From positions 1 to 11,230 of the forward strand of contig JAADFH010000143.1 in NCBI GenBank assembly GCA_013152995.1: 11,230 nt of DNA, in the 5' to 3' direction. Position 1 is the stretch's first letter. Every line of letters starts with the position of its first letter. Origin of the DNA: Methanobacteriota archaeon. Its GTDB lineage: Archaea; Hydrothermarchaeota; Hydrothermarchaeia; Hydrothermarchaeales; BMS3B. Shown in pieces: positions 1 through 11,230 of this stretch. A model generated the notes under the pieces. It saw only the letters and a list, made by a program, of their open reading frames with translations. It did not search any database and was not told the DNA's origin. Both the position numbers and the translations under genes were made by a program.

Positions 1-86
1 GTGCCACATGCCGGGCAGTGCTGGGCAAGCATGGTGGCTCTGGAGAGCAGCAGTGTGACCATCTTCTGAATCTCTTCCTCATCCAT
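1..86 (-). CDS. Autoantigen p27 (Sjogren/scleroderma autoantigen 1)-like zinc-ribbon protein, N-terminal part
   Basis: This is the first 28 codons of a minus-strand gene that runs off the left edge. It begins with ATG at 86 and reads MDEEEIQKMVTLLLSRATML followed by AQHCPACG. An acidic start, a short helix ending in a 'ATML' stretch and then a CPxCG half zinc ribbon match the archaeal members of the autoantigen p27 family (Pfam PF06677), small proteins of unknown role that normally carry a second Cys pair downstream. The second pair would lie outside the window. No Shine-Dalgarno site precedes the ATG, so the mRNA may be leaderless or have a very short leader. The gene diverges from the UPF0147 gene across 87 bp. 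The family call rests on a short fragment and is tentative. Confidence 0.7.
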   Translation of the reverse strand, partial: MDEEEIQKMVTLLLSRATMLAQHCPACG

Positions 87-112
87 AACTCTACTAGAAT
101 ATTTTATAACGT

Positions 113-126
113 AAAAAATTTATAAA
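113..126 (+). promoter_or_regulatory. BRE/TATA promoter for the UPF0147 operon
   Basis: A run of six A (113-118) is followed directly by TTTATAAA (119-126), the textbook archaeal BRE plus TATA arrangement. The expected start site about 26 nt past the box centre is near 148, giving a leader of roughly 25 nt that contains the strong Shine-Dalgarno site. TTTATAAA is its own reverse complement. It could therefore also serve the divergent minus-strand gene, whose ATG is at 86, with a predicted start near 96. A second AT-rich element (TTTTATAA, 102-109) lies closer to that gene. Confidence 0.65.
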
Positions 127-161
127 GGAGTGAGTAAGATAACTGCCTCGCTTACTTTTTT

Positions 162-170
162 GGAGGTGAT
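162..170 (+). promoter_or_regulatory. Strong Shine-Dalgarno site for UPF0147
   Basis: GGAGGTGAT is a full-length complement to the 3' end of archaeal 16S rRNA and ends 3 nt before the ATG at 174. It fixes the start of the UPF0147 gene and shows that this mRNA has a leader, unlike several other genes in the window. Confidence 0.85.
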
Positions 171-173
171 TAC

Positions 174-431
174 ATGGAGCAGGAGGAAAAGATGAGGCAG
201 ATATGTGAGGTGCTGGATCAGGTTATTGAGGACACTTCAATACCGAGAAACATACGCAGGGCAGCCGAGGAAGCCAAGAACGCCCTGATGAACGAGAAGG
301 AGGACATAGGCGTCAGGGTGAGCTCGGCAATCTACATACTGGAGGAGATCAGCAACGACAGAAATCTGCCTCTCCATGCAAGAACAATAATATGGAACGT
401 ATCCAGTGAGCTGGAGACAATTAAAACATGA
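174..431 (+). CDS. UPF0147 family protein
   Basis: This 85-residue protein matches the archaeal UPF0147 family (Pfam PF03685) along its whole length, and the length is normal for the family. It is all-helical, with a repeated pattern around 'IPRNIRRAAEEAKNAL' (about residues 23-38) and 'LPLHARTIIWNVSSELE' (about residues 65-81), which suggests two related helical hairpins. It has no enzyme motif, membrane segment or signal peptide, and the biochemical role of the family is unknown to me. The start is fixed by the GGAGGTGAT ribosome site. Its TGA overlaps the ATG of the next gene in an ATGA, so the two are probably translationally coupled. Confidence 0.92.
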   Translation: MEQEEKMRQICEVLDQVIEDTSIPRNIRRAAEEAKNALMNEKEDIGVRVSSAIYILEEISNDRNLPLHARTIIWNVSSELETIKT

Positions 432-979
432 AAGATGTGCTTCTCGCAATAGCCGAGGAGCTTGTGCTCTTTTCTCCAGAAGAGGCGCGGCAGGTGCTGG
501 GTCAGGTTTCCAGGTCTGACTCTGCCCTTGCTGCCAGCGTGGAGCGTCTGGTGGGGGAGGGTGCCCTTCTCCCTCTTGAAGCTGGGGAGAGCGTGCTCAG
601 CACGCCGGCGCTGCTCAGGTGGTCAGAGGCGAGCGGGGCGAGCATGCCGGAGGTCAGAGAGGCGATAGCCAGCCTTGGTTTGCCCAGGAGGAGCTACTCC
701 GACGTGCACTGGGATGCGCTCACCACCCGCCTCCTCGGAATTCTTGAGGAAGAGGCAAAAGCTCTGGAGAAGGACGTGGTGGAGCTTCTTCAGCCGCCCA
801 AGAAGCTGGAGATGAGGTACTTTGACCTTGCGATAGAGTTCCACAGGTACTACAGCCAGGTTCTCAGGCTGAGCTTCACCGAGGAGCTTTCAGGAAGAAT
901 ACCGCTGCAGAGGTGGGAAGAGTTCTTCAGCATCCTCAGCAGGCTGCGGGAGCTCCTGAACAGGCTGGACTACAGGTAG
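428..979 (+). CDS. Hypothetical helical protein coupled to UPF0147
   Basis: This 183-residue protein is not one I recognise. It has no Cys, no signal peptide and no membrane segment, and looks cytoplasmic and mostly helical. Residues 1-95 contain short helices with a possible winged-helix-like pattern ('SPEEARQVLGQ' then 'ASVERLVGEGALL'). Residues 96-135 are rich in Glu, Lys and Leu and could form a coiled coil. The C-terminal part ('LEMRYFDLAIEFHRYYSQVL' and 'RWEEFFSILSRLRELL') is aromatic and basic. The ATG overlaps the UPF0147 stop by four bases, with a weak GGAGA 10 nt upstream, so expression is probably coupled to UPF0147. The 3' end overlaps the opposing nucleotidyltransferase gene by 10 bp. 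Its codon use matches the neighbours, which supports a real gene. Confidence 0.8.
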   Translation: MKDVLLAIAEELVLFSPEEARQVLGQVSRSDSALAASVERLVGEGALLPLEAGESVLSTPALLRWSEASGASMPEVREAIASLGLPRRSYSDVHWDALTTRLLGILEEEAKALEKDVVELLQPPKKLEMRYFDLAIEFHRYYSQVLRLSFTEELSGRIPLQRWEEFFSILSRLRELLNRLDYR

Positions 980-1713
980 GGCTCCAGGTATCTGAAGTTC
1001 AGCCTCAGCAGGTCCCTCCAGCCTGAGAGGTGCACCCAGGTAGGGGTTAGCACCCCTCTGAGCTCAAGCCCCGCCTCAATCATGTCCTGCAGCGCAAGCG
1101 GAATCTCGTACTCGCCGCGTGGAGAGAGCCCAACACCCTCTATAAAGCTCACCGCCTCCCTGCTGAAGATGTACATGGGTGCTGCTGCAATCTCGCTGAG
1201 AACCTCATCCTCTGAAGGCTTCTCCACCAGCGCGGTGACCCTGCCTCCCTCCAGCCTGACGCTGCTCGCCTCTCCCATCTCCTCCCTCTTCATGCGCTTC
1301 AGGCTGAGCGTTGCGGCTGGCTTCTCTGCGCTGTGCACCTCAAGCATCTCCTGCAGGTGCTCCTCCGGGAACAGGTAGTCGCAGGCAAGCACTAAGAAGC
1401 TCTCCTCACCCTCAAGCAGGGGCAGCGCCTGCTGCAGCGCGTGGGCAGAGCCCAGGGGCTCGGGCTGGTGCACCCTCTCCACCTCATACCCCTGCCCGCG
1501 CACGAATTCCTCCAGCAGGCTCCCGTGCCTGCCCGTGACCAGCACCACCCTCTCAAACCCCGCAGCCTCAAGCATCTCAAGCTGCTGCAGCACCACAGCT
1601 CTGCCATTCACCGGCAGCATCGCCTTGGGCACCGCATGCGTGAGCGGCTCCAGCCTGCTTCCCCTGCCACCCGCCAGAATCACCGCAAGCACGTGCCTGT
1701 GCAGAAGCCTCAC
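970..1713 (-). CDS. Sugar-phosphate nucleotidyltransferase (NTP_transferase family)
   Basis: This predicted cytoplasmic enzyme joins a sugar-1-phosphate to an NTP, giving an NDP-sugar and pyrophosphate, probably for glycan or lipid glycosylation. The 247-residue protein has the Rossmann-like signature LAGGRGSRLEPLT (residues 13-25), PK at 29-30, a metal-binding Asp in 'VLACDYLF' (D112), 'EKP' (164-166) and the C-terminal 'WVHLSGWRDLLRLN'. It ends after the catalytic domain and lacks the left-handed beta-helix acetyltransferase domain of GlmU-type proteins. Sugar and nucleotide specificity cannot be read from the sequence; glucose-1-P thymidylyl- or uridylyltransferase and mannose-1-P guanylyltransferase are all possible. 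The start is a GTG at 1713; another in-frame GTG at 1692 (residue 8) would also keep the signature. It is divergent from htrA. Confidence 0.88.
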   Translation of the reverse strand: MRLLHRHVLAVILAGGRGSRLEPLTHAVPKAMLPVNGRAVVLQQLEMLEAAGFERVVLVTGRHGSLLEEFVRGQGYEVERVHQPEPLGSAHALQQALPLLEGEESFLVLACDYLFPEEHLQEMLEVHSAEKPAATLSLKRMKREEMGEASSVRLEGGRVTALVEKPSEDEVLSEIAAAPMYIFSREAVSFIEGVGLSPRGEYEIPLALQDMIEAGLELRGVLTPTWVHLSGWRDLLRLNFRYLEPYL

Positions 1714-1755
1714 ATCACAAACCTTAAGTAGCTCATAGCATCCTGAAATAAAAAG
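1714..1755. promoter_or_regulatory. Compact divergent promoter region (nucleotidyltransferase / HtrA)
   Basis: Only 42 bp separate the two divergent starts. On the plus strand CTTAAGTA (1723-1730) is centred about 29 nt before the HtrA ATG and predicts a transcript start near 1753, so htrA mRNA would be leaderless or nearly so; no Shine-Dalgarno site is present. On the minus strand TTTTTATT (1754-1747) predicts a start near 1724 and a leader of about 11 nt before the GTG at 1713. Both boxes are imperfect, so the exact positions are inferred. Confidence 0.5.
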
Positions 1756-2907
1756 ATGGACAGGCGCTCATACATAGCCTGCATAGCCTCGGGGGTTATA
1801 GGCGCCCTGCTCATGTACATGCTGATTTACCCGCCCTGGGCTACCCAGAGCCGCACCATCGTGACTGGTGAGGGCACGCTGAACCTGCAGGGTGTGAAGA
1901 GCGTTGAGGTAGTGGTGCTGAACGGCAGCATAGACGTGGAGGAGGTGGTGCGCAGGGTTTACCAGGACGCCGTGGAGAGCGTTGTCAGGGTGGAGGTGGA
2001 GAGGAACATAACCGGGGAGGAGGAACATCCAGCAGTTGAGGCTACGGGCTCCGGAATAGTGTACCGCAGCGACGGCTACATCCTCACCGCGGACCACGTT
2101 GTTGTTAATGCGAGCAGCATAGTGGTGGTTCTGCATGATGGCAGCAGCTACGCCGCCGAGCTCGTGGGCAGGGACCCTATGACGGACATAGCGGTGCTGC
2201 GCATCAGGGCGAACAACTTAAAGCCCGCGCTGCTCGGCAACTCCTCGCAGGTTGAGCCCGGGAGCATAGCCATCGCCATAGGCAACCCCTACGGTCTCGC
2301 CAACAGCGTGAGCTACGGCATAGTTAGCGGTGTCAACAGGAGCATAGAGATAGGCACCGGCTACAGGATGCACGACATAATCCAGACAGACACCGCAATA
2401 AACCCGGGCAACTCCGGCGGACCGCTGCTGAACTCTAAGGGTGAGGTCATAGGTGTGAATACAGCGATCTTCTCAACCAGCACGGGTTTTCAGGGCATAG
2501 GCTTTGCGATACCCATAAACACCGCCCGCTATGTTGCTGACAGCATAATAAAGCACGGCAAGGTTCTGAGAGCGTGGCTGGGGATAACCGGCATAGACCT
2601 CACACCCGCGCTTGCGAGGGCTCTCAACCTGAGCGTGAGCAGAGGTGCGCTGGTTATGAGCGTTGCTCCTGAATCGCCGGCCGAGGAGGCTGGAGTACTG
2701 CCCAGCAGGGGTGTGCTGGGCAGCGCCAACTTCACCCCTGGTGATGTTATTCTTGAGGTCGGGGGGAGGAAGGTTGAGAACATGGACGACGTGGTGCAGG
2801 CGGTGACGAGCCACAGGATAGGTGAGACGATTGAGCTCAAGCTCTACCGCAACGGCAGGGTGCTCAGCCTGCGTGTAACCCTGGGTGAGCGCCCCGCAAA
2901 CCTCTAA
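1756..2907 (+). CDS. Membrane-anchored HtrA/Deg-type serine protease with PDZ domain
   Basis: This is an ATP-independent serine protease of the HtrA/DegP/DegQ family, expected to act outside the cytoplasmic membrane on misfolded or signal proteins. The 383-residue protein starts with a single membrane segment (about residues 7-25). A trypsin-like domain follows with the complete triad: H114 in 'TADHVV', D144 in 'MTDIAVL' and S220 in 'GNSGGPL'. One PDZ domain covers about residues 275-375. The PDZ carries an insertion of about a dozen residues between 'EEAGV' and 'PGDVILEVGG'. The mRNA is probably leaderless. The 3' end overlaps the opposing OGG1 gene by 4 bp. The family assignment is secure; substrates and regulators are unknown. 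Archaeal HtrA proteins are patchily distributed, so ancient transfer from bacteria is possible, but base composition is like that of the neighbours. Confidence 0.95.
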   Translation: MDRRSYIACIASGVIGALLMYMLIYPPWATQSRTIVTGEGTLNLQGVKSVEVVVLNGSIDVEEVVRRVYQDAVESVVRVEVERNITGEEEHPAVEATGSGIVYRSDGYILTADHVVVNASSIVVVLHDGSSYAAELVGRDPMTDIAVLRIRANNLKPALLGNSSQVEPGSIAIAIGNPYGLANSVSYGIVSGVNRSIEIGTGYRMHDIIQTDTAINPGNSGGPLLNSKGEVIGVNTAIFSTSTGFQGIGFAIPINTARYVADSIIKHGKVLRAWLGITGIDLTPALARALNLSVSRGALVMSVAPESPAEEAGVLPSRGVLGSANFTPGDVILEVGGRKVENMDDVVQAVTSHRIGETIELKLYRNGRVLSLRVTLGERPANL

Positions 2908-3656
2908 GGCTTCAGCTCCTCTCTTGCAAGAAGGTACAGGTACTGCTGGGCATAGCCCTGGTAGGGCTCCCATCTTGCAGAAAAGCTCTCAATCCTGCTG
3001 CGGCTCACTCCGAAGTACTCCTGCATCGCCCTCGCTATCCACACGTCAACCGGAAAAGCCTCTAAGAAGCCGTAGCCGAAGAGGAGCACGCACTCAGCCA
3101 CCTTCTCGCCAACGCCGGGCAGCCTCATCAGCTCCCTCTTAGCCTCCTGGAACTCCAGCCTCTCAATCCCCTCCAGCGCACCCTCAGCCACCAGCTCTGC
3201 CGAGCGCTTTATGAACCTCTCCCTGAACCCCAGCCTTGCATGCTTCAGCTCAGCCTCCGCGAGCACCTCCGGGGCTGGCATGCGCCCTCCTGCTAAGCTC
3301 ATAATCGCCTGCACGTTCCTCTTTATCCTGGGGATGTTGTTGTTTATGGAGCACAGGAACGCCACCAGCGTCTCCCAGGGCTCGCTAAGTGTCAGCCTGA
3401 GCCCCCTGAACCTGCGCACGGCTCTTGCGAGCGCCTCATCCCGGCACAGCACCTCATAGACCTCCTCCAGTCTGTCCTCCAGCCTGAGCAGCCTGTGCAC
3501 ATACTCCCCTGAGCAGCCCCTGTACCTGAGCACGCTGCCATCCTGCCAGAGCTCTGCTCTGGTGTCAAGCATCCTGAAGTACCTGCTGCCCTGCTTCTGC
3601 CACAGGAATTCAGGAGGCTGACCGCTCTCCATCGTCAGCCTGAGGTTGAGAAGCAT
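2904..3656 (-). CDS. ogg: 8-oxoguanine DNA glycosylase/AP lyase, OGG1 family
   Basis: This DNA repair enzyme excises 8-oxoguanine and cleaves the abasic site. It is 250 residues long, close to the minimal OGG1 core. The N-terminal OGG_N region includes 'LTMESGQ' (human LTLDSGQ, containing the 8-oxoG-contacting Gly). 'CSINNNI' (102-108) matches human CSSNNNI. The helix-hairpin-helix '[11 protein letters not shown]' (179-189) holds the catalytic Lys, K185 (human K249), and the base-stacking Cys, C189 (human C253). 'FPVDVW' holds the catalytic Asp, D204 (human D268). '[11 protein letters not shown]' near the end aligns with human PYAGWAQAVLF, so Q237 matches Q315 while Y241 replaces F319. It belongs to the OGG1 type rather than the AGOG or short Ogg2 types. 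A TATA element 24 nt upstream predicts a leaderless mRNA. It is divergent from the ornithine cyclodeaminase gene. Confidence 0.95.
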
Positions 3657-3703
3657 GCGAAAGGTTATTTATCCGGCAGCTTATATTGCTTCCGGGTGTG
3701 AGG
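3657..3703. promoter_or_regulatory. Divergent promoter region (OGG1 / ornithine cyclodeaminase)
   Basis: A 47-bp spacer holds one TATA-like box for each direction. On the minus strand AATATAAG (3687-3680) predicts a start at about 3657, one base before the OGG1 ATG at 3656, so that transcript should be leaderless. On the plus strand TTATTTATC (3665-3673) predicts a start near 3696, giving a leader of about 8 nt before the ATG at 3704, or almost none if the in-frame GTG at 3698 is used. The two boxes lie inside each other's core promoter, so the two transcripts may compete. Confidence 0.55.
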
Positions 3704-4939
3704 ATGGAAGTGCGAGAAATTGAGCTCAGGGGGCACATAATAGACTCTCTCATACTGCCGAGGGTGTTTGACACGATAATGGACATGGGGGGAGATTTTG
3801 AGGTTCTGAGCTTCAGGATAGGCAAGCGCCGCACAGACCCGAGCTACGCCAGGATACTGGTGAAGGCGGAAAGCAGGGAGAAGCTGGACGAGATTCTGGG
3901 TGAGCTGCACAGAATCGGCGCCACGGTGCCGGAGGTGGAGGAGGCGAAGCTTGAGCCCGCGCCCGCTGACAGGGTTCTCCCGCAGGGTTTCTACTCCACC
4001 ACCAACCACCCGACCTACGTGCTGGTTGGCGGAGAGTGGGTGGAGGTGGAGGACATTGAGATGGACACCGCCATAGTGGTTGACCTCAAGCAGAGGCGTG
4101 CCAGATGCAAGCCAATAAGCGAGATTAAAAAGGGCGAGCTGGTGGTGGTGGGGCAGAGCGGTATAAGGGTGGTGCCCCCTGAGAGACCCAGGGAAGCGAG
4201 CGTGTTTGAGTTCATGCGCAGCAGCGTGAGCAGCGAGAAGCCTGTTGCGGCTATAATTTCCAAGGTGGCTGAGGCTATAATTGAGGTTAAAGCGCAGGGA
4301 GGGAAGGTGCTTGCTGTTGCAGGACCCGCGGTGGTGCACACCAGCGCCGCATCCGCGCTTGCCTGGATGATAAGGCATGGCTACGTGGACGTGCTCTACG
4401 CCGGAAATGCGCTTGCGGTGCACGACATAGAGGCGCAGCTCTTCCACACCTCCTTAGGAATGGACGTTGAGACAGGCAAGCCCTCGGAGGGTGGGCACAG
4501 AAACCACCTGTATGCGATAAATGAGGTGATGCGCGCTGGCGGGATAGCAGAGCTGGTTAGGAGCGGCAAGCTGAGGGCGGGGATAATGTACGAGGTGGTT
4601 CGCAGGGGCATACCCTACGTGCTCGCCGGCTCAATACGGGACGATGGACCCCTGCCGGAGGTGATAACCGACGTGCTTGAGGCGCAGCGGGAGATGCGCA
4701 GGCACCTGAAGGGGGTGAAGCTGGTGCTCATGCTGTGCACCATGCTTCACAGCATAGCCGTTGGCAACCTGCTGCCCAGCAGCGTGCGCACCATCTGCGT
4801 GGACATCAACCCTGCCACTGTAACAAAGCTCACCGACAGGGGTACCGCACAGGCTATGGGGATAGTGAGCGACGTCGGGGTGTTTCTGCCGATGCTCGTG
4901 GAGGAACTGCGCAGAAGGGAAGGGAACACTTCAAACTGA
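3704..4939 (+). CDS. Archaeal ornithine cyclodeaminase (TIGR00300 / LOR-SDH N-domain family)
   Basis: The protein matches the archaeal TIGR00300 family, whose Methanococcus maripaludis member was shown to convert ornithine to proline and ammonia with NAD. Such enzymes supply proline where the ProABC route is missing. It is cytoplasmic and 411 residues long from ATG 3704. The N-terminal LOR/SDH domain ('[20 protein letters not shown]' onward, about residues 2-95) is followed by the conserved '[12 protein letters not shown]' and a C-terminal Rossmann-like region with '[14 protein letters not shown]', '[12 protein letters not shown]', '[12 protein letters not shown]' and '[12 protein letters not shown]'. 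The last part ('[12 protein letters not shown]') is also typical. I chose ATG 3704 because family members begin just before this REIELRGH segment; TTG 3686 and GTG 3698 are in-frame alternatives. Some databases label the family lysine-ketoglutarate reductase/saccharopine dehydrogenase, which is less likely here. Confidence 0.9.
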
Positions 4940-4966
4940 TTATCGTTACCCTGTGGCTGAATATGT

Positions 4967-5401
4967 ATGGGGCATGGAGCGCGCCGCCTTCTTGTTCTGC
5001 TCCTGCTGATTGCTGCAGCGGGAGCGGGGGCGGTGCTGCTCTACCACTCCCCTGCTGATGGTGGTGATGAAGAGCTCACAGAGGGGGTGGTGGAGCGAAT
5101 AATAGACGGTGATACCATGGTGGTGAGCGGCTTCAGAGTGAGGCTGGTGGGCATAAACACGCCCGAGAGGGGCGAGCCCGGGTACGAGGAGGCAAAGAAC
5201 TTCCTGCTTGAGCTCTGCCCTCCGGGCATGGTAGTGCGCCTGGATGTGGATGACCTTGAGCCCTACGACAAATACGGCAGGGTGCTGGCGGTGGTGTACT
5301 GCAATGGCGTAAACGCAAATGCGGAGCTGCTCAGGCGCGGCTACGCTGAGGTTATGTACATCCCGCCCTCGGAGTTCAGACCCTGGGAGTGGAGGCAGTA
5401 G
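4967..5401 (+). CDS. Membrane-anchored or secreted staphylococcal-nuclease-like (SNase/thermonuclease) protein
   Basis: This is a predicted calcium-dependent phosphodiesterase acting on DNA or RNA outside the membrane. The 144-residue protein begins with a basic stretch and a hydrophobic segment (about residues 8-26) without a lipobox, so it is either an anchor or a signal peptide. The SNase domain covers about residues 38-134. D49 in 'IDGDT', R59 in 'VRLVG', E67 in 'NTPE' and R105 in 'DKYGR' correspond to nuclease residues D21, R35, E43 and R87, so all three main catalytic side chains (R35, E43, R87) are present. The metal ligand equivalent to D40 is Asn (N64). No clear Shine-Dalgarno site precedes ATG 4967, 27 bp after the cyclodeaminase stop. 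The C-terminus is short and its end lies 2 nt from, or overlaps, the kinase start, indicating an operon with the two-component genes. Confidence 0.9.
   Translation: MGHGARRLLVLLLLIAAAGAGAVLLYHSPADGGDEELTEGVVERIIDGDTMVVSGFRVRLVGINTPERGEPGYEEAKNFLLELCPPGMVVRLDVDDLEPYDKYGRVLAVVYCNGVNANAELLRRGYAEVMYIPPSEFRPWEWRQ
5391..5395 (+). promoter_or_regulatory. Shine-Dalgarno site that favours a TTG start for the kinase
   Basis: GGAGG lies inside the end of the nuclease gene, 8 nt before an in-frame TTG at 5404. The other candidate start, GTG at 5389, overlaps this site and has only a poor GGGA before it. The spacing argues for TTG, which would place the kinase 2 nt after the nuclease stop. Confidence 0.55.
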
Positions 5402-5403
5402 GG

Positions 5404-6930
5404 TTGCGCAGGTACCATGCTCTGGGAATAGGCGTGGTGGCTCTGGGAGTGCTCTTCAACATAGCCTACTGGGAGGTGGAGCGACTGCTGCAGCACGGGG
5501 GGATGAGCTACCGGGAGCACTTCATGCAGAGCCCGGTGGCAAGCGTCCTTGCAATAGCCTTCCTGCCCGTGATGGCGCTCATAGGGTATCAGATAATAAG
5601 GGAGGGCAGGCTTAGGGAGGAGCTGGAGCGTGAGGTGGAGGTGAGGAAGAAGGCTGAGAAGGCGATGAGGCAGTATCTGGAGGAGCTCAGGGCGGTGCAC
5701 GAGATTGACAGGAGCATCATAGAGAGCTCTGACCTGGGCTCGCTGCTGGAGTTCATAGTCAAGAAAGCCAGGGAGCTCACGGGCGCGGATGTGTGCTTCT
5801 TCGGGCTGGTGGAGGGAGACGTTATAAAGCTGCACGCCTTCTCGGGGGCGATGACGGGCATAACCACCGAGGAGTTCAGGAACATTGAGCTCAGGCGGGG
5901 TGAGGGCGCCGGCTGGCTTGCGCTGCAGAGCGCAAAGCCCGTGTACGTGGCAGACTACCTGAGGGATGAGAGGATGAAGGTGGGGGAGAAGGTGAGGGAT
6001 GCGGTGAGGCGGGAGAGGCTGGTGTCCATGCTGGCGGTGCCCTTCTTCTCACGCGAGGGCAAGCCCACAGGCGTGCTGTACGTGGCGATGCGCAGGAGGT
6101 ACGAGTTCAGCGATGAGGAGGTGGAGGTGCTGCTCACCCTCGCATCCCAGGCGTCCATGGCTGTGGAGCACGCAAGGCTGCTGGAGGAGATAAGGAGAGC
6201 CTACGAGGAGCTGAAGAAGGTTGACCAGATAAAGGACAGCATAATAGCCAACGTGGGGCACGAGCTCAGAACGCCGATAACCATCGCCAAGGGTGCGATA
6301 GAGCTGCTTGAGGAGGAGGAAGATCCGGAGGAGCGCAGGGAGCTGATTGACATGGCTTACTCGGCGCTGGTGAGGCAGGACTTCATAGTCAGCAACCTGC
6401 TGGAGGCTGCGAAGTTCAGGGAGGGCATAACCAAGCCCCACAGGGAGGTTGTGGAGCTGAAGCCGCTGGTTGACACCATGGTGGACTGGTTCATGCCCAT
6501 GGCGAGGCAGAACAGGCTGGAGTTCGTGGTTGAGGTTGGCGACGCCACCAGCGTCTGCGCCGACCCGGAGCACGTGGAGCACGTGCTCAGGAATCTTATA
6601 AGCAATGCGATAAAGTTTAATAAGTCTGGAGGCAAAGTAATTATCAAAGCCCATGAGCAAGACGGAAGGGTAGAGGTGTGCGTTGAGGATACGGGAATCG
6701 GAATACCTGCAGAGGTGCTTGAGAGGGTGTTTGAGAAGTTTTACCAGGTTGACCCCTCACCCACCAGGAAGTACGGGGGAATTGGTCTGGGGCTGGCAAT
6801 AGCACGTGAGATGGTGCGCGCCAACGGGGGAGAGATAAGGGTGGAGTCCGAGCCTGACAGCGGCTCAAGGTTCTGCTTTACACTGCCCGCAGCGGAGGGA
6901 TGTGATGGTAAGGATACTGGTGGTGGATGA
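5404..6930 (+). CDS. Two-TM GAF-domain sensor histidine kinase
   Basis: This is a membrane histidine kinase that autophosphorylates on His and passes phosphate to a response regulator, almost certainly the next gene. Residues are numbered from the alternative GTG at 5389; subtract 5 for the TTG 5404 start. Two membrane segments (about 10-28 and 49-69) flank an outside loop of only about 20 residues. A charged coiled coil (70-105) and a GAF domain (about 106-260) follow. The HisKA H-box has H291 in 'NVGHELRTP'. The ATPase domain has an N-box ('RNLISNAIKFN', N402 and N406), G1 ('DTGIGIP', D434), F-box ('FEKFYQ') and G2 ('GGIGLGLAIA'). All catalytic motifs look intact. There is no HAMP or PAS domain, so sensing probably lies in the GAF domain or membrane helices. 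The 3' end overlaps the regulator gene by 26 nt. Confidence 0.93.
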   Translation: MRRYHALGIGVVALGVLFNIAYWEVERLLQHGGMSYREHFMQSPVASVLAIAFLPVMALIGYQIIREGRLREELEREVEVRKKAEKAMRQYLEELRAVHEIDRSIIESSDLGSLLEFIVKKARELTGADVCFFGLVEGDVIKLHAFSGAMTGITTEEFRNIELRRGEGAGWLALQSAKPVYVADYLRDERMKVGEKVRDAVRRERLVSMLAVPFFSREGKPTGVLYVAMRRRYEFSDEEVEVLLTLASQASMAVEHARLLEEIRRAYEELKKVDQIKDSIIANVGHELRTPITIAKGAIELLEEEEDPEERRELIDMAYSALVRQDFIVSNLLEAAKFREGITKPHREVVELKPLVDTMVDWFMPMARQNRLEFVVEVGDATSVCADPEHVEHVLRNLISNAIKFNKSGGKVIIKAHEQDGRVEVCVEDTGIGIPAEVLERVFEKFYQVDPSPTRKYGGIGLGLAIAREMVRANGGEIRVESEPDSGSRFCFTLPAAEGCDGKDTGGG

Positions 6931-7267
6931 CGAGCCAGAGCTCAGGTTCCTGGCGAGGGTGATGCTGGAGAGGGCGGGATACGAGGTTGTGGAGGCAAAG
7001 GACGGTGCGGAGGCGCTGAGCAAGCTTGAGCAGCAGGAGGTCAGCCTGGTGCTGCTGGACGTCATGATGCCCGGAGACGACGGCTGGGTGGTGTGCAGGA
7101 GAATCAAGGAGAAGCACTCCGTGCCCGTGGTGATGTTCACGGTGCGCACCAGCGAGCGGGACAGGAAGAAGAGCCAGGAGTGCGGTGCGGATGCGCACAT
7201 AAACAAGCCCTTTGACAGGGAAGAGCTTCTCAGGGTTGTGAGGAAGATGCTTGAGGCTCAGGGCTGA
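6905..7267 (+). CDS. Single-domain (CheY-like) response regulator
   Basis: This 120-residue protein is a lone receiver domain. It has the acidic pair D8-D9 ('VVDDEPE'), the phosphoacceptor D52 ('LLDVMMP'), switch Thr T79 ('VMFTVRT') and Lys K101 ('INKPFD'), so it should be phosphorylated by the kinase encoded just upstream. There is no DNA-binding or enzyme domain, so the output must go through a protein partner or phosphorelay, as is common for archaeal regulators. GGAGG at 6894-6898 lies 6 nt before ATG 6905, which I prefer over the GTG at 6902. The gene starts inside the kinase gene and ends in a 10-bp tail-to-tail overlap with aspS. Confidence 0.94.
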   Translation: MVRILVVDDEPELRFLARVMLERAGYEVVEAKDGAEALSKLEQQEVSLVLLDVMMPGDDGWVVCRRIKEKHSVPVVMFTVRTSERDRKKSQECGADAHINKPFDREELLRVVRKMLEAQG

Positions 7268-8562
7268 AGCCTGAACCTGTCCCTGGGGAAGAGCGCGGCT
7301 TCGCGGATGTTGCCCAGCTTCAGCAGCAGCATCAGGAAGCGCTCTATGCCCATGCCGAAGCCTCCGTGGGGGGGCATGCCGTACCTGAACGCCTCTAAGT
7401 AGGTCTGGAAGTTCTCAACCCTCAGCCCGCTCGCCTTTATGCGCTCCACGAGCAGCTCGTAGCCGTGGATTCTCTGCGAGCCAGAGACGACTTCCCTGCC
7501 CCTGAACTCCAGGTCAAAGCTTCTGCTGAGCTTCTCTCCTTCAGGCATGGTGTAGAAGGGCTTTGCCTCAAGCGGGAAGTCTTTTATGAAGTACAGCTCA
7601 TGCCCCTGCTCCGCCATTATCTCTCCCAGCCTCTTCTCAGCCTCTGTGGTGAGGTCCTCGCCGAAGGGCAGGCTGAACCCCTGCTCCTCCAGCATCTCCA
7701 GAGCTTCCTCGTAGGTTATCCTGGGTATCCTCCTGCACTCGGGCAGCTCCGCATCCAGCAGCTCAAGCTCCCTGCTGCAGTTGCTCTCCACTCCCTGGAG
7801 CATCGCATGCACCAGGCTTTCTATGACGTCCATCACGTCCCCGTGGCTGGAGATGAAGGCGAGCTCGCAGTCTATGGCTGTGATCTCGTTGAGGTGCCAG
7901 ATGGTGTCGTGCTCCTCTGCCCTGAAGTAGGTGGCTATCTCAAACACCCTGTCAAACCCCGTCGCCATCAGCATCTGCTTGTAGAGCTGCGGGCTCTGGG
8001 CTAAGAAAGCCTCGCGCTCAAAGTAGCTCACGGGGAAGAGCTCTGTGCCCCCCTCGCTGGCGGTGGAGATTATCCTGGGTGTGTGCACCTCAATGAACCC
8101 ATCGCCGAGCAGGTAGCTCCTGGCTGCCTGCAGCAGGGCGCTGCGTATCCTGAACACCGCCGCAACCCTTGGCTTGCGCAGGTCAAGCACGCGGTGGTCA
8201 AGGCGTGTGTCCAAGTTGGCGGGCACCCTGCCGGTGGGGTCAAGGGGGAGGGGCGAGGCTGCGCTGCTGAGCACCTCTATGCTCTCCGGAAGAAGCTCAA
8301 CCCCGCCCGGGGCTTTGTCCATAGCCTGAAGCGTGCCCCTCACCACAACAACGCTCTCCCTGCTGAGCTTCTTTGCGGTCTCAAAAACCTCCTGGCTCAC
8401 GTGCTTCTTCGGCAGGGTTACCTGCACCACACCGTATCTATCCCTGACCAGCAGGAAGAGCAGCCCGCCGAGCTTGCGCCTCTCCTGCACCCAGCCGGCT
8501 ATGCTCACCCTGCTGCCGTGCATCTCCGGCTTCAGCTCCTTAGAGTAAACACGCTCAATCAT
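7258..8562 (-). CDS. aspS: Aspartyl-tRNA synthetase, archaeal type, probably non-discriminating (Asp/Asn)
   Basis: This class II synthetase charges tRNA-Asp with aspartate. At 434 residues it has the normal archaeal length. An N-terminal OB-fold anticodon domain (about residues 1-100, 'AGWVQERRKLGG') precedes the catalytic domain, with motif 2 'FRAEEH' (ATP-binding R214, H223) and motif 3 'GFGMGIERFLMLLL' (about 401-414). Residue 85 is Pro and residue 26 is Gln. In Thermococcus kodakarensis the Asp-specific enzyme has W26 and K85, and the relaxed archaeal enzymes typically have H26 and P85. P85 therefore suggests that it also makes Asp-tRNA-Asn for GatCAB amidation. W222 in motif 2 is unusual. 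The start at 8562 is fixed by GGAGG (8571-8567). The gene overlaps the end of hisD by 8 bp, so the two are co-transcribed. Confidence 0.96.
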   Translation of the reverse strand: MIERVYSKELKPEMHGSRVSIAGWVQERRKLGGLLFLLVRDRYGVVQVTLPKKHVSQEVFETAKKLSRESVVVVRGTLQAMDKAPGGVELLPESIEVLSSAASPLPLDPTGRVPANLDTRLDHRVLDLRKPRVAAVFRIRSALLQAARSYLLGDGFIEVHTPRIISTASEGGTELFPVSYFEREAFLAQSPQLYKQMLMATGFDRVFEIATYFRAEEHDTIWHLNEITAIDCELAFISSHGDVMDVIESLVHAMLQGVESNCSRELELLDAELPECRRIPRITYEEALEMLEEQGFSLPFGEDLTTEAEKRLGEIMAEQGHELYFIKDFPLEAKPFYTMPEGEKLSRSFDLEFRGREVVSGSQRIHGYELLVERIKASGLRVENFQTYLEAFRYGMPPHGGFGMGIERFLMLLLKLGNIREAALFPRDRFRLQP

Positions 8563-9838
8563 GGTACCTCCTCTCCAGTCTCGCCTCAATGCTCCTTGCA
8601 TGCATCTCCAGCCCCTCGGCTCTTGCCAGGGTGATTGCAGCTTTTGCTATTCTCTCCAGCCCCTCCATGCTCAGCTTCTGGTAGGTGATTCTCTTCATGA
8701 AGTCGTACACGCTCAGTCCAGAGTATGCCCTTGCGTAGCCTGAGGTTGGAAGCACGTGGTTGGTGCCGCTTGCGTAGTCGCCGCAGGCTACGGGTGAGCA
8801 CCTGCCCAGGAACACGGAGCCCGCGTTTTTCACCCTCTGCAGCACCTGCTCCTCCTCTTCGGTGAGCACCTGCAGGTGCTCCGGCGCGAACTCGTTGGCA
8901 AACCTGACAGCCTCCTCCATGCTCTCTGCTATCAGCACAGCTCCACCCGCCTCAATCGCCTCCCTTGCAGCCTCGGGAGCGCTTCTGCGTGCGCTCTCAA
9001 GCTCCTCCACAACCTTCTCTGCAAGCTCCCTGCTCGTGGTCACCAGCACGCTCACCGCCATGGGGTCGTGCTCAGCCTGCGCCAGCATGTCCAGCGCAAC
9101 AATCTCAGCCTCTGCGCTTGCATCCGCAAGTATCAGAACCTCGCTCGGTCCAGCGGGCATGTCGGTAGCCACCTCGCCGCTCACCAGCCGCTTTGCAATG
9201 GTCACGTACACGTTGCCCGGTCCGACAATCTTCTCCACCCTGCGCACGCTCTCTGTGCCGTAGGCGAGCGCCGCAACAGCCTGCGCGCCCCCTATGCTGT
9301 AAACCTCCCGCACTCCCGCAAGCCTGCACGCCGCTAAGGTGAGGGGCTCTGGATAGCCGTTTTTGCCTGGAGGTGTGCAGACCGCAACCCTCTCAACTCC
9401 CGCAAGCCTCGCGGGCACCGCACACATCAGCACGGTTGATGGGTAGCTCGCCCTGCCTCCCGGGACATAGCATCCCACGCTCTCCAAGGGACGGTGGAGC
9501 ATGCCCAGGGTTGCTCCCTCTCTGGTGTAGCTCCAGTCCTTCGGCAGCTGCCTGCGGTGGAAGTCGGCTATGCAGCTCCTCGCAGTCTCAAGCGCCTCCA
9601 GCACCTCCCTGCTCAGCCTGCTCTGGGCTTCCTCCAGCACCTCCTCAGGCACGGAGATGCTCTCCAGCTCCACGCCGTCAAACTCCCTGGTGAGCTCCAC
9701 CAGTGCCCTGTCCCCGTGCCTGCGCACCCTCTCCAGAATTTGCCTCACGCCTGCTTCAGCCTCTTCATAGCTGCGCCTTCTGTTCAGCAGTTTTTCCCTC
9801 TGCTCTCTGCTGAGGTTTTTGAGTTCTGTGAAAAGCAT
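8555..9838 (-). CDS. hisD: Histidinol dehydrogenase
   Basis: This enzyme catalyses the last two steps of histidine synthesis, oxidising histidinol to histidine with two NAD. It is zinc-dependent and cytoplasmic. The 427-residue protein is full length. It shows 'DMPAGPSEVLILAD' (226-239), Zn ligands Q254 and H257 in 'AQAEHDP', the catalytic pair E320-H321 in 'FAPEHLQ', D354 in 'CGDYASGTNH' and H413 in 'GLEMHARS'. These line up with E. coli Q259, H262, E326, H327, D360 and H419 at a steady offset of 5-6. ATG 9838 was chosen over upstream starts because homologues begin here and a TATA box sits at the correct leaderless distance. No other his genes are in the window, so the pathway is dispersed. 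It forms an operon with aspS. Confidence 0.97.
   Translation of the reverse strand: MLFTELKNLSREQREKLLNRRRSYEEAEAGVRQILERVRRHGDRALVELTREFDGVELESISVPEEVLEEAQSRLSREVLEALETARSCIADFHRRQLPKDWSYTREGATLGMLHRPLESVGCYVPGGRASYPSTVLMCAVPARLAGVERVAVCTPPGKNGYPEPLTLAACRLAGVREVYSIGGAQAVAALAYGTESVRRVEKIVGPGNVYVTIAKRLVSGEVATDMPAGPSEVLILADASAEAEIVALDMLAQAEHDPMAVSVLVTTSRELAEKVVEELESARRSAPEAAREAIEAGGAVLIAESMEEAVRFANEFAPEHLQVLTEEEEQVLQRVKNAGSVFLGRCSPVACGDYASGTNHVLPTSGYARAYSGLSVYDFMKRITYQKLSMEGLERIAKAAITLARAEGLEMHARSIEARLERRYHD
8566..8571 (-). promoter_or_regulatory. Shine-Dalgarno site for aspS inside hisD
   Basis: Read on the minus strand this is GGAGGT, ending 3 nt before the aspS ATG at 8562. It lies in the last codons of hisD and decides the aspS start, ruling out an upstream in-frame ATG at 8601 that would add 13 non-conserved residues. 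Confidence 0.75.
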
Positions 9839-9861
9839 CAGTATGCAGGTGTGTGAGGGGC

Positions 9862-9869
9862 TATTTAAA
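9862..9869 (-). promoter_or_regulatory. TATA box of a leaderless hisD-aspS transcript
   Basis: The minus-strand octamer TTTAAATA is centred 27 nt upstream of the hisD ATG at 9838, so transcription should begin on or next to the start codon. No Shine-Dalgarno site precedes the ATG, which agrees with a leaderless mRNA. The box lies in a 52-bp spacer after the upstream membrane-protein gene, which indicates that hisD-aspS is a separate transcription unit from the DUF2249/membrane-protein genes. Confidence 0.7.
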
Positions 9870-9890
9870 CATGTCGGAGAGGCGCCCTGG

Positions 9891-11063
9891 CTACCTGCGC
9901 AGCACCAGGAACATCTCCACTGCGAAGGCTGCGAAGGCGAGGGTGAGGGGAACCGCGAGAAGGCTGAGCGGCTCAAAGATGCTGCTGAAGGCAAAGCCTG
10001 CAAAGCTCAGGTTCATGGTGATGAACAGCAGCTTTGCCAGGGGTTTGCTGTAGAGGTCCTGAATCAGGGGCACCCCCGGCTGTCCTACCTTTGAGCTGTA
10101 CTTCTCAAGCCAGGTGAGCATGGGCAGGATGTGGTACATTGCCCCGACTATGGTGAGCCCAACCCAGCCAGCGAGCACCAGGTGGGCGTGGGTAAAGCCA
10201 CCCGGGAAGCCGAGAATAGCGGAGGTGAAGCCTGCCGTGACCCCCGCAACTCCGAAGGCAAGCGCATACGCCATGAACCTGGCGCTTATGTCCATCTCAA
10301 CAGGCGGACCGTGGGGCTTGCTGAAGTAGGTTCTTGTGAGGTTGTAGGCGAAGAGGTAGAATCCTGCAAGAAAGAGTGCTGAGGAGGCGATGAAGAGCGC
10401 TCCTTTTCCTGAGCTCAGGAACATGCCGGTGGCTGAGAGCACCGCCAGCACGAAGTGCACCTCTGCCAGCCTGCGGGAGTATAGCTGTCTCAGGGAGAGC
10501 ATGGGGAACAGCTCGTAGAGTCCGCCGAAGTTGGTCATGGCTATGAAGCCGAGGGCGAGCAGATGCGCATGGGTGGAGAGGTTGAACTGCATGCCACCAA
10601 GCACGCCAGCAAGTGCATACCCCGAGCCTGCCAGCAGGTAAATCACAGCCACCAGGAAGAACCAGATGGCGATGCTTTTCCTGTAGAATTCGGGAACGCT
10701 CAGGGCGGTGGCAAAGATTTCGTAGGCGAAGATGAGGAAGGATGCAAGGAGCACCGCACCTGCCAGCGGCAAAGCTCCGGGGTTGCTGAGGAAGGCGTAG
10801 ATGAGCAGCAGAAATCCGGCGTTGACCAGCAGGAACTGGAGCTCTGCCAGCCTGCGGGAGTGGAGCTGGGCACCGATTATTGTGGGCAGGAGCTGGTACA
10901 TCGCCCCCATTATTACCAGAGTAAAGAATGCGCCTGCTAAGAGGTGGACGTGAGCAGCCCTGAAGCTGCCTGCTCCAAGGGCATCCGCCGCCCCCAGTGC
11001 AACTCCAGCGAGCATGTAGAGCAGTGCAGCGCAGAAGAACCTTACAGGGAGCAGGTGGAGCAT
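9891..11063 (-). CDS. 12-TM heme-copper oxidase subunit I-like membrane protein with triplicated HxH units
   Basis: This 390-residue integral membrane protein has about 12 hydrophobic helices (near 7-28, 38-60, 72-93, 99-121, 131-153, 165-187, 199-219, 222-243, 262-285, 292-314, 342-362, 365-387). Its segments of the form 'GAMYQLLP' followed by 'SRRLAE' resemble cbb3-type cytochrome oxidase and NO reductase subunit I, whose fold is three four-helix arcs. It consists of three repeats with HxH at 38/40, 165/167 and 292/294, Tyr at 56/183/310 and Pro at 60/187/314, all exactly 127 apart. A lone His (H203) is in helix 7. The double His of helix 7 that binds copper in true oxidases is absent, so oxygen or NO reduction is uncertain. 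NnrS-like heme/copper proteins are an alternative family. GAGG (11072-11069) precedes ATG 11063, which lies 2 nt after the DUF2249 stop. Confidence 0.8.
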   Translation of the reverse strand: MLHLLPVRFFCAALLYMLAGVALGAADALGAGSFRAAHVHLLAGAFFTLVIMGAMYQLLPTIIGAQLHSRRLAELQFLLVNAGFLLLIYAFLSNPGALPLAGAVLLASFLIFAYEIFATALSVPEFYRKSIAIWFFLVAVIYLLAGSGYALAGVLGGMQFNLSTHAHLLALGFIAMTNFGGLYELFPMLSLRQLYSRRLAEVHFVLAVLSATGMFLSSGKGALFIASSALFLAGFYLFAYNLTRTYFSKPHGPPVEMDISARFMAYALAFGVAGVTAGFTSAILGFPGGFTHAHLVLAGWVGLTIVGAMYHILPMLTWLEKYSSKVGQPGVPLIQDLYSKPLAKLLFITMNLSFAGFAFSSIFEPLSLLAVPLTLAFAAFAVEMFLVLRR

Positions 11064-11065
11064 GC

Positions 11066-11230
11066 CTACCTCTTCCTGATTTTCACCCTCCAGACACCCT
11101 CCCGCTGCTCTGCCTCGCAGGTGTAGCCTCTGCTCTCCAGCATGGTGATGACTGGCACGGGCTTTACCTCCACTATGAGCTCAAGCTCTCCGAGCTCTTC
11201 AAGCTTCCTGAGAATTAAAGGCGGTCTCTC
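11066..11230 (-). CDS. DUF2249 domain protein, C-terminal part
   Basis: This is the last 54 codons of a minus-strand gene that enters from beyond the right edge and stops with TAG at 11068-11066. The fragment starts 'ERPPLILRKLEELGELELIV', continues with 'KPVPVITMLESRGY' and ends 'EGVWRVKIRKR'. This matches the C-terminal two thirds of the DUF2249 family (Pfam PF10006), a small TusA-like fold, including the 'P.P....L...G' and 'W.V.I.R' positions. DUF2249 proteins are often found near heme-copper oxidase, NnrS and hemerythrin-type genes in bacteria and archaea, which fits the membrane protein encoded 2 nt downstream. Its molecular role is unknown. The N-terminus and any fused domain lie outside the window. 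Confidence 0.75.
   Translation of the reverse strand, partial: ERPPLILRKLEELGELELIVEVKPVPVITMLESRGYTCEAEQREGVWRVKIRKR

Follow-up and report, generated by a model that had tools for sequence, protein, structure and literature searches.

The DNA analysed here, hereafter the window, is a stretch of 11,230 nucleotides from a Methanobacteriota archaeon of the Hydrothermarchaeales (assembly GCA_013152995.1, contig JAADFH010000143.1, positions 1 to 11,230), whose genome is assembled to 827 kb in 143 contigs with a completeness of 62%. Towards its end lies the gene of a 390-residue membrane protein, preceded by the 3' part of a DUF2249 gene (Table 1). Judged by its sequence, this protein is a real, well-preserved triplicated relative of the heme-copper oxidases (HCOs), and not an oxidase.

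Table 1. Coordinates of the 390-residue protein gene, its repeat units and motifs, and the adjoining gene
Feature	Window coordinates	Strand	Details and basis
12-helix HCO-fold membrane protein, three 4-helix units	9891..11063	-	390 aa, ATG start; open reading frame, PF00115, predicted model, repeat
Unit 1, residues 1-127	10683..11063	-	helices 5-28, 35-63, 70-92, 95-121; predicted model and repeat
Unit 2, residues 128-254	10302..10682	-	helices 131-154, 162-189, 197-216, 221-246; predicted model and repeat
Unit 3, residues 255-390 and stop	9891..10301	-	helices 259-284, 289-325, 340-357, 364-389; predicted model and repeat
HxH of unit 1, His38 (1f) and His40 (1s)	10944..10952	-	conservation and repeat alignment
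HxH of unit 2, His165 (2f) and His167 (2s)	10563..10571	-	conservation and repeat alignment
HxH of unit 3, His292 (3f) and His294 (3s)	10182..10190	-	conservation and repeat alignment
DUF2249 gene, 3' part, running off the window	11066..11230	-	stop codon 2 bp before the ATG of the 390-aa gene

Fold and internal repeat

The predicted model of the protein has 12 helices arranged as three sets of four, and matches the structures of cbb3, nitric oxide (NO) reductase (NOR) and COX. Profile search against Pfam COX1 (PF00115) gave 75.6 bits, well above the gathering cut-off of 34.8, over three matching stretches, the best of which aligns residues 164-217 of unit 2 with profile positions 345-397. Both the fold and the COX1 kinship had been proposed by a first-pass annotation of the same DNA. 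The score of 49.1 bits against the ccoN equivalog TIGR00780 lies far below the 583-bit cut-off; it carries little weight because the CcoN-like genes of relatives, found in 5 of 61 genomes, also miss this cut-off (best 276 bits).

The first-pass annotation had further described an exact three-fold repeat with a period of 127 residues. The spacing is indeed exact for the residues His38/165/292, His40/167/294, Tyr56/183/310 and Pro60/187/314, whereas the letters are not: anchored on the three prolines, the units are 40, 26 and 30% identical over 50 columns, compared to at most 16% at register shifts of 1-14. As also described there, the motif SRRLAE at residues 69 and 196 has a displaced counterpart in unit 3 (SKPLAK at 339), owing to a 16-residue insertion that sits after the long second helix of this unit. 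The region following that helix (residues 318-338, window 10050-10112) contains an invariant Trp318 and the nearly invariant Pro332 and Leu337 in the family.

In an ungapped self-match, the shift of 127 was the best of those tested (48/263, 0.183), and the highest value among 1000 local block shuffles fell narrowly short of it (0.176). Profile-versus-profile comparison of the units, built from 35 rows of close relatives, is a stronger test, and gave P values of 8.7e-28 for units 1 and 2, 2.3e-23 for units 1 and 3 and 2.1e-19 for units 2 and 3. The corresponding values for the units of 120 CcoN-like rows are 5.4e-9, 2.1e-12 and 2.3e-8; the sizes serve as a guide, since we chose the CcoN borders ourselves and one alignment is more diverse than the other. 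The triplication is thus clearer in the window protein than in cbb3 subunit I, as had been suspected for the oxidases. Moreover, family units 1 and 2 scored 96 and 86 against CcoN unit 3, which bears the HxH motif, and 77 and 34 against CcoN units 1 and 2, a pattern that an older HxH state would predict; the score of only 63 for family unit 3 against CcoN unit 3 is not predicted by it.

Histidine positions and their conservation

We name f and s the places that precede the proline of each unit by 22 and 20 residues, respectively. In HCO structures, the low-spin heme is held by the second histidine of helix X and the histidine of helix II, the active-site heme sits on the first histidine of helix X, and the histidine of helix VI is part of the CuB site. 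We take the places 1f, 3s and 3f to be homologous to the HCO heme ligands in the cbb3, NOR and COX structures that match the predicted fold. The CcoN-like rows have histidine at 1f (120/120), 2s (119/120), 3f (120/120) and 3s (120/120), and other residues at 1s (Asn in 111/120) and 2f (Tyr in 119/120); here the CuB histidine of CcoN is placed by the ungapped proline anchor, which we preferred over a gapped profile alignment. Together with the ligand roles, this pattern implies that two of the three pores bring the s place of one unit together with the f place of the following unit. Applied to the remaining pore, the same three-fold rule predicts a pair 1s-2f.

Similar to cbb3 subunit I (CcoN, TIGR00780, PDB 8smr and 3mk7), to which it is homologous by profile, the window protein combines a 12-helix fold with histidines at 1f, 2s, 3f and 3s. 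However, it is shorter, has a stronger internal repeat, carries extra histidines at 1s and 2f in place of the Asn and Tyr of CcoN, and lacks the CuB His-His. The places of the low-spin heme ligands, His38 and His294, are histidine in 100% of the 35 close rows. By contrast, columns 217/218 in the third helix of unit 2, corresponding to the CuB/FeB His-His, hold no histidine in any of the 35, nor does any of them have a His-His between the unit-2 proline and residue 260. Compared to NorB (PDB 3o0r, 4xyd), the window protein likewise lacks a His-His at CcoN's site after the unit-2 proline. As far as sequence can tell, the absence of CuB ligands rules out that the protein works as an oxidase or NO reductase through the HCO mechanism. 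A seventh histidine, His311, is invariant in the close rows; it stands three residues before the unit-3 proline, and its equivalents are Gln57 and Glu184.

All six histidines are present in 34 of the 35 close rows, where the HxH spacing holds, and in only 47 of the 179 rows of a wider-family alignment (180 with one NnrS row included). The refuting condition named by the first-pass annotation, homologues without the HxH spacing, was thus not observed among close relatives, and the wider-family count speaks in part against the generality of the pattern. In the wider family, 1s is histidine in 179/179 rows and 2f in 178/179, and 13 rows retain these two alone. A Thermus relative likewise has histidine at 1s and 2f only. 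The places 1f and 3s tend to stay or go together (both 72, 1f alone 8, 3s alone 0, neither 99). For 2s and 3f the counts are 48 for both, 86 for 2s alone, 0 for 3f alone and 45 for neither; for the unpredicted pair 1f/3f, they are 48 for both, 32 for 1f alone, 0 for 3f alone and 99 for neither. A simple co-loss of all three pairs therefore fails for 2s-3f (86/179 rows).

Among 80 haloarchaeal loci, 1s and 2f are histidine in 80/80, 1f in 71/80, 3s in 57/80 and 2s in 0/80; 3f falls in a gap of this alignment and was taken for haloarchaea from the wider-family alignment. The archaeal paralog L049_5 lost 2s and 3f separately from the haloarchaea. In a set of 117 rows, comprising the haloarchaeal loci and 37 protein rows with possible near-duplicates kept, 1f and 3s occur together in 76 rows, 1f alone in 24, 3s alone in 2 and neither in 15, and 3s ranks second among 226 columns in association with 1f.

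Relatives and gene neighbourhood

A close ortholog (63-100% identity) is found in 8 of the 10 genomes of the source's family, the exceptions being G003 and G006. Names among the relatives include Euryarchaeota archaeon, archaeon BMS3Bbin15, Candidatus Pyrohabitans (a fragment) and Hydrothermarchaeales, and some sources label relatives cbb3-type. The source genome itself encodes a 402-residue paralog with HxH in each of three units (contig C51) and, on contig C80, a separate CcoN-like fragment with a His-His; the reading frame after this fragment contains two CxxCH motifs.

In a 59-row tree, ten HCO rows (nine CcoN-like and one NorB) are parted from the rest with support 100/98. A less firm grouping (90/87) unites the window-type rows with the paralog rows, and the haloarchaeal, bacterial and outlying rows form another group (97/97); the names bacterial and haloarchaeal rest on few named members, such as Arcticibacter and Daejeonella, and Halorientalis, respectively. 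Long branches lead to NorB, a single row set apart from the window family, and to NnrS, Azospirillum, Thermus, Halobaculum limi and P0079. The root was placed on CcoN by our choice, and the direction of change is therefore not proven by the tree.

The DUF2249 gene and the 390-residue protein gene are probably in the same operon. The truncated DUF2249 piece scores 23.8 bits against a Pfam cut-off of 29.5, and is 85% identical to a G005 protein that passes. A DUF2249 gene lies directly upstream in all eight close orthologs (the window, G001, G002, G004, G005, G007, G008 and G009), and each of these genomes has only one or two DUF2249 matches. It is preceded by a MIP18-type gene in six of the eight, this gene being absent in G004, and the window contig ends before the place. 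Of more distant genomes, G019 has both genes, whereas G014 and G017 have the MIP18-type gene only.

Nitrogen-oxide genes flank several relatives. Among 11 lower-identity loci with flanks (L002, L042-L051), four (L042, L043, L044 and L047) have Nap and HAO-like genes and one (L045, in G010) has NorB and a two-heme cytochrome, whereas six, some on short contigs, have no Nap, HAO-like or NorB gene. Of two outlying members that do not belong to the bacterial group proper, a Thermus plasmid relative has nar genes, two DUF2249 genes, a protoglobin and a MIP18-type gene nearby, and an Azospirillum relative has a cytochrome c, NorB (4xyd_A, E 1e-204), DUF2249 and a hemerythrin. Near the haloarchaeal relatives are found qNOR (3ayf_A, E 6e-181), a multicopper oxidase and DUF2249 in Haloferax larsenii, nirK and DUF2249 in Halobaculum limi, and DUF2249 with no Nir/Nor gene within the stretch viewed in Halobaculum halobium and Halomontanus rarus. 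Within 8 kb of the 80 haloarchaeal loci, 17 of which are shorter than 17 kb, raw counts without a background rate are 52 for DUF2249, 33 for NirK-like genes (a query that may also catch other multicopper oxidases), 10 for qNOR, 60 for any of the three and 20 for none. In addition, relatives of a 195-residue protein without a Pfam match (L053 6296-6883) lie less than 1 kb from the family gene in 39 of these loci.

Published accounts tie DUF2249 to denitrification, both for Haloferax mediterranei (PMC11218638) and, with DrpA/DrpB, for Thermus (PMC6282519), and its connection to the HCO superfamily and to roles in nitrogen compounds is credited to Pei et al. 2014 (Protein Sci 23:1220) by PMC11218638. 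Hydrothermarchaeota genomes are reported to contain Nar, Nap and Nor genes, with no NirS/K (PMC6759336).

Elsewhere in the window, profile searches identified a trypsin-type protease with a PDZ domain (1756-2907), an ArgZ/LOR-SDH-type protein adjoining an SNase-type nuclease (3686-5401), and a GAF-containing histidine kinase followed by a response regulator (5389-7267).

Candidate heme sites and competing explanations

We propose, with about equal grounds for belief and doubt, that the protein is a membrane cytochrome of the 12-helix HCO fold without a CuB site, in which the six conserved histidines form three cyclic bis-His heme b pairs and which serves nitrogen-oxide metabolism. The pairs would be 1f-3s, 2s-3f and 1s-2f, one per pore, and each could coordinate a bis-His heme b towards the outer face. 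Two of the pores would be the counterparts of those for the oxidase low-spin and active-site hemes, whereas the third (1s-2f), unused by oxidases, would hold the pair kept almost without exception in the family. The protein would most likely transfer electrons to nitrogen-oxide metabolism, or bind and buffer NO for it, with the DUF2249 and MIP18-type proteins as partners. Homotrimers of four-helix proteins have been likened to the HCO core, citing Pei et al. 2014 (PMC4602095). A literature search over titles and abstract openings, with most subscription journals uncovered, found no description of such a three-pair histidine arrangement.

Several observations weigh against this proposal. Heme, pairing geometry and function are what we infer, and no direct sign of heme was found. 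In all 86 of the 179 rows that keep 2s without 3f, which are bacterial relatives, 3f is tyrosine, breaking the co-loss rule. Two haloarchaeal rows (L120 and L160) have 3s without 1f; column 194 has a higher phi with 1f than 3s does, column 225 shows one more coincident change than 3s, and tree-based sign tests with few independent changes were not significant (best median p 0.125). The gapped profile alignment pairs the CuB histidine of CcoN with 2f, using two gaps, and not with 2s, and two of 180 wider rows (P0041 and P0070) contain a His-His at some point in the stretch from the unit-2 proline to unit 3. Finally, the window gene has only DUF2249 and no nitrogen-oxide enzyme gene in its neighbourhood, the upstream side of which is cut off.

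A possible, though not probable, alternative is an NnrS-like NO-stress protein, whose hemes bind NO or protect other metal proteins without respiratory electron flow and with one or two of the three sites filled. NnrS (PF05940) is similar in length to the family and shares a weak profile signal with it, matching 8 of 108 relatives weakly at E <= 1 (best E 1.6e-4), and the nitrogen-oxide neighbours of relatives would fit; NnrS genes are regulated together with denitrification genes (PMC6710368). The one NnrS that we compared (in G015, PF05940 E 8e-22) also matches COX1, below the cut-off, and has histidines at 1f, 1s, 2s and 3s. However, it lacks those at 2f and 3f and forms a long separate branch, and for the window protein itself the profile search gave no hit to NnrS at E <= 1. 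The 3f place of this NnrS is tyrosine, as in the 86 family rows. No match to NnrS was found on plasmids.

It is rather improbable that the six histidines bind copper, zinc or iron ions, or serve proton or ion transfer, instead of binding heme. The lack of a direct heme signal leaves room for this, and the tyrosine at 3f would be unusual for a bis-His heme, but the places homologous to 1f, 3s and 3f bind heme in HCOs and lie in the same predicted fold, and a row that has lost 1f has usually lost 3s as well. That the protein is merely a diverged oxidase subunit I, as in annotations such as cbb3-type subunit 1, is very hard to credit, for despite the Pfam COX1 and ccoN matches and the cbb3-type names of some relatives, the CuB His-His is missing in 35/35 close rows and a His-His is found in another gene of the source genome, which is CcoN-like.

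The first-pass annotation had offered two readings, a living relative of the form from which the oxidases diverged or a separate three-site heme protein. The second is the better one, with indirect support, whereas a tree that parts the protein from the HCOs on a chosen root does not show the first. The repeat argument favours loss from a six-His state, and we tentatively suggest that the protein may keep the architecture of a triplicated HCO ancestor with three equivalent bis-His heme sites, from which the oxidases would have lost 1s-2f and made 2s-3f their heme-CuB centre, the haloarchaeal relatives would have lost 2s-3f, and the bacterial ones 1f-3s.

With the proposed three-pair cytochrome, it would become testable how the three-fold pseudo-symmetry of oxidase subunit I arose and why one of its three pores is empty, and a small protein that is encoded by one gene and has three similar sites is tractable for such tests. 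The protein further draws attention to a membrane component of nitrogen-oxide metabolism in archaea and bacteria that is conserved and uncharacterised.
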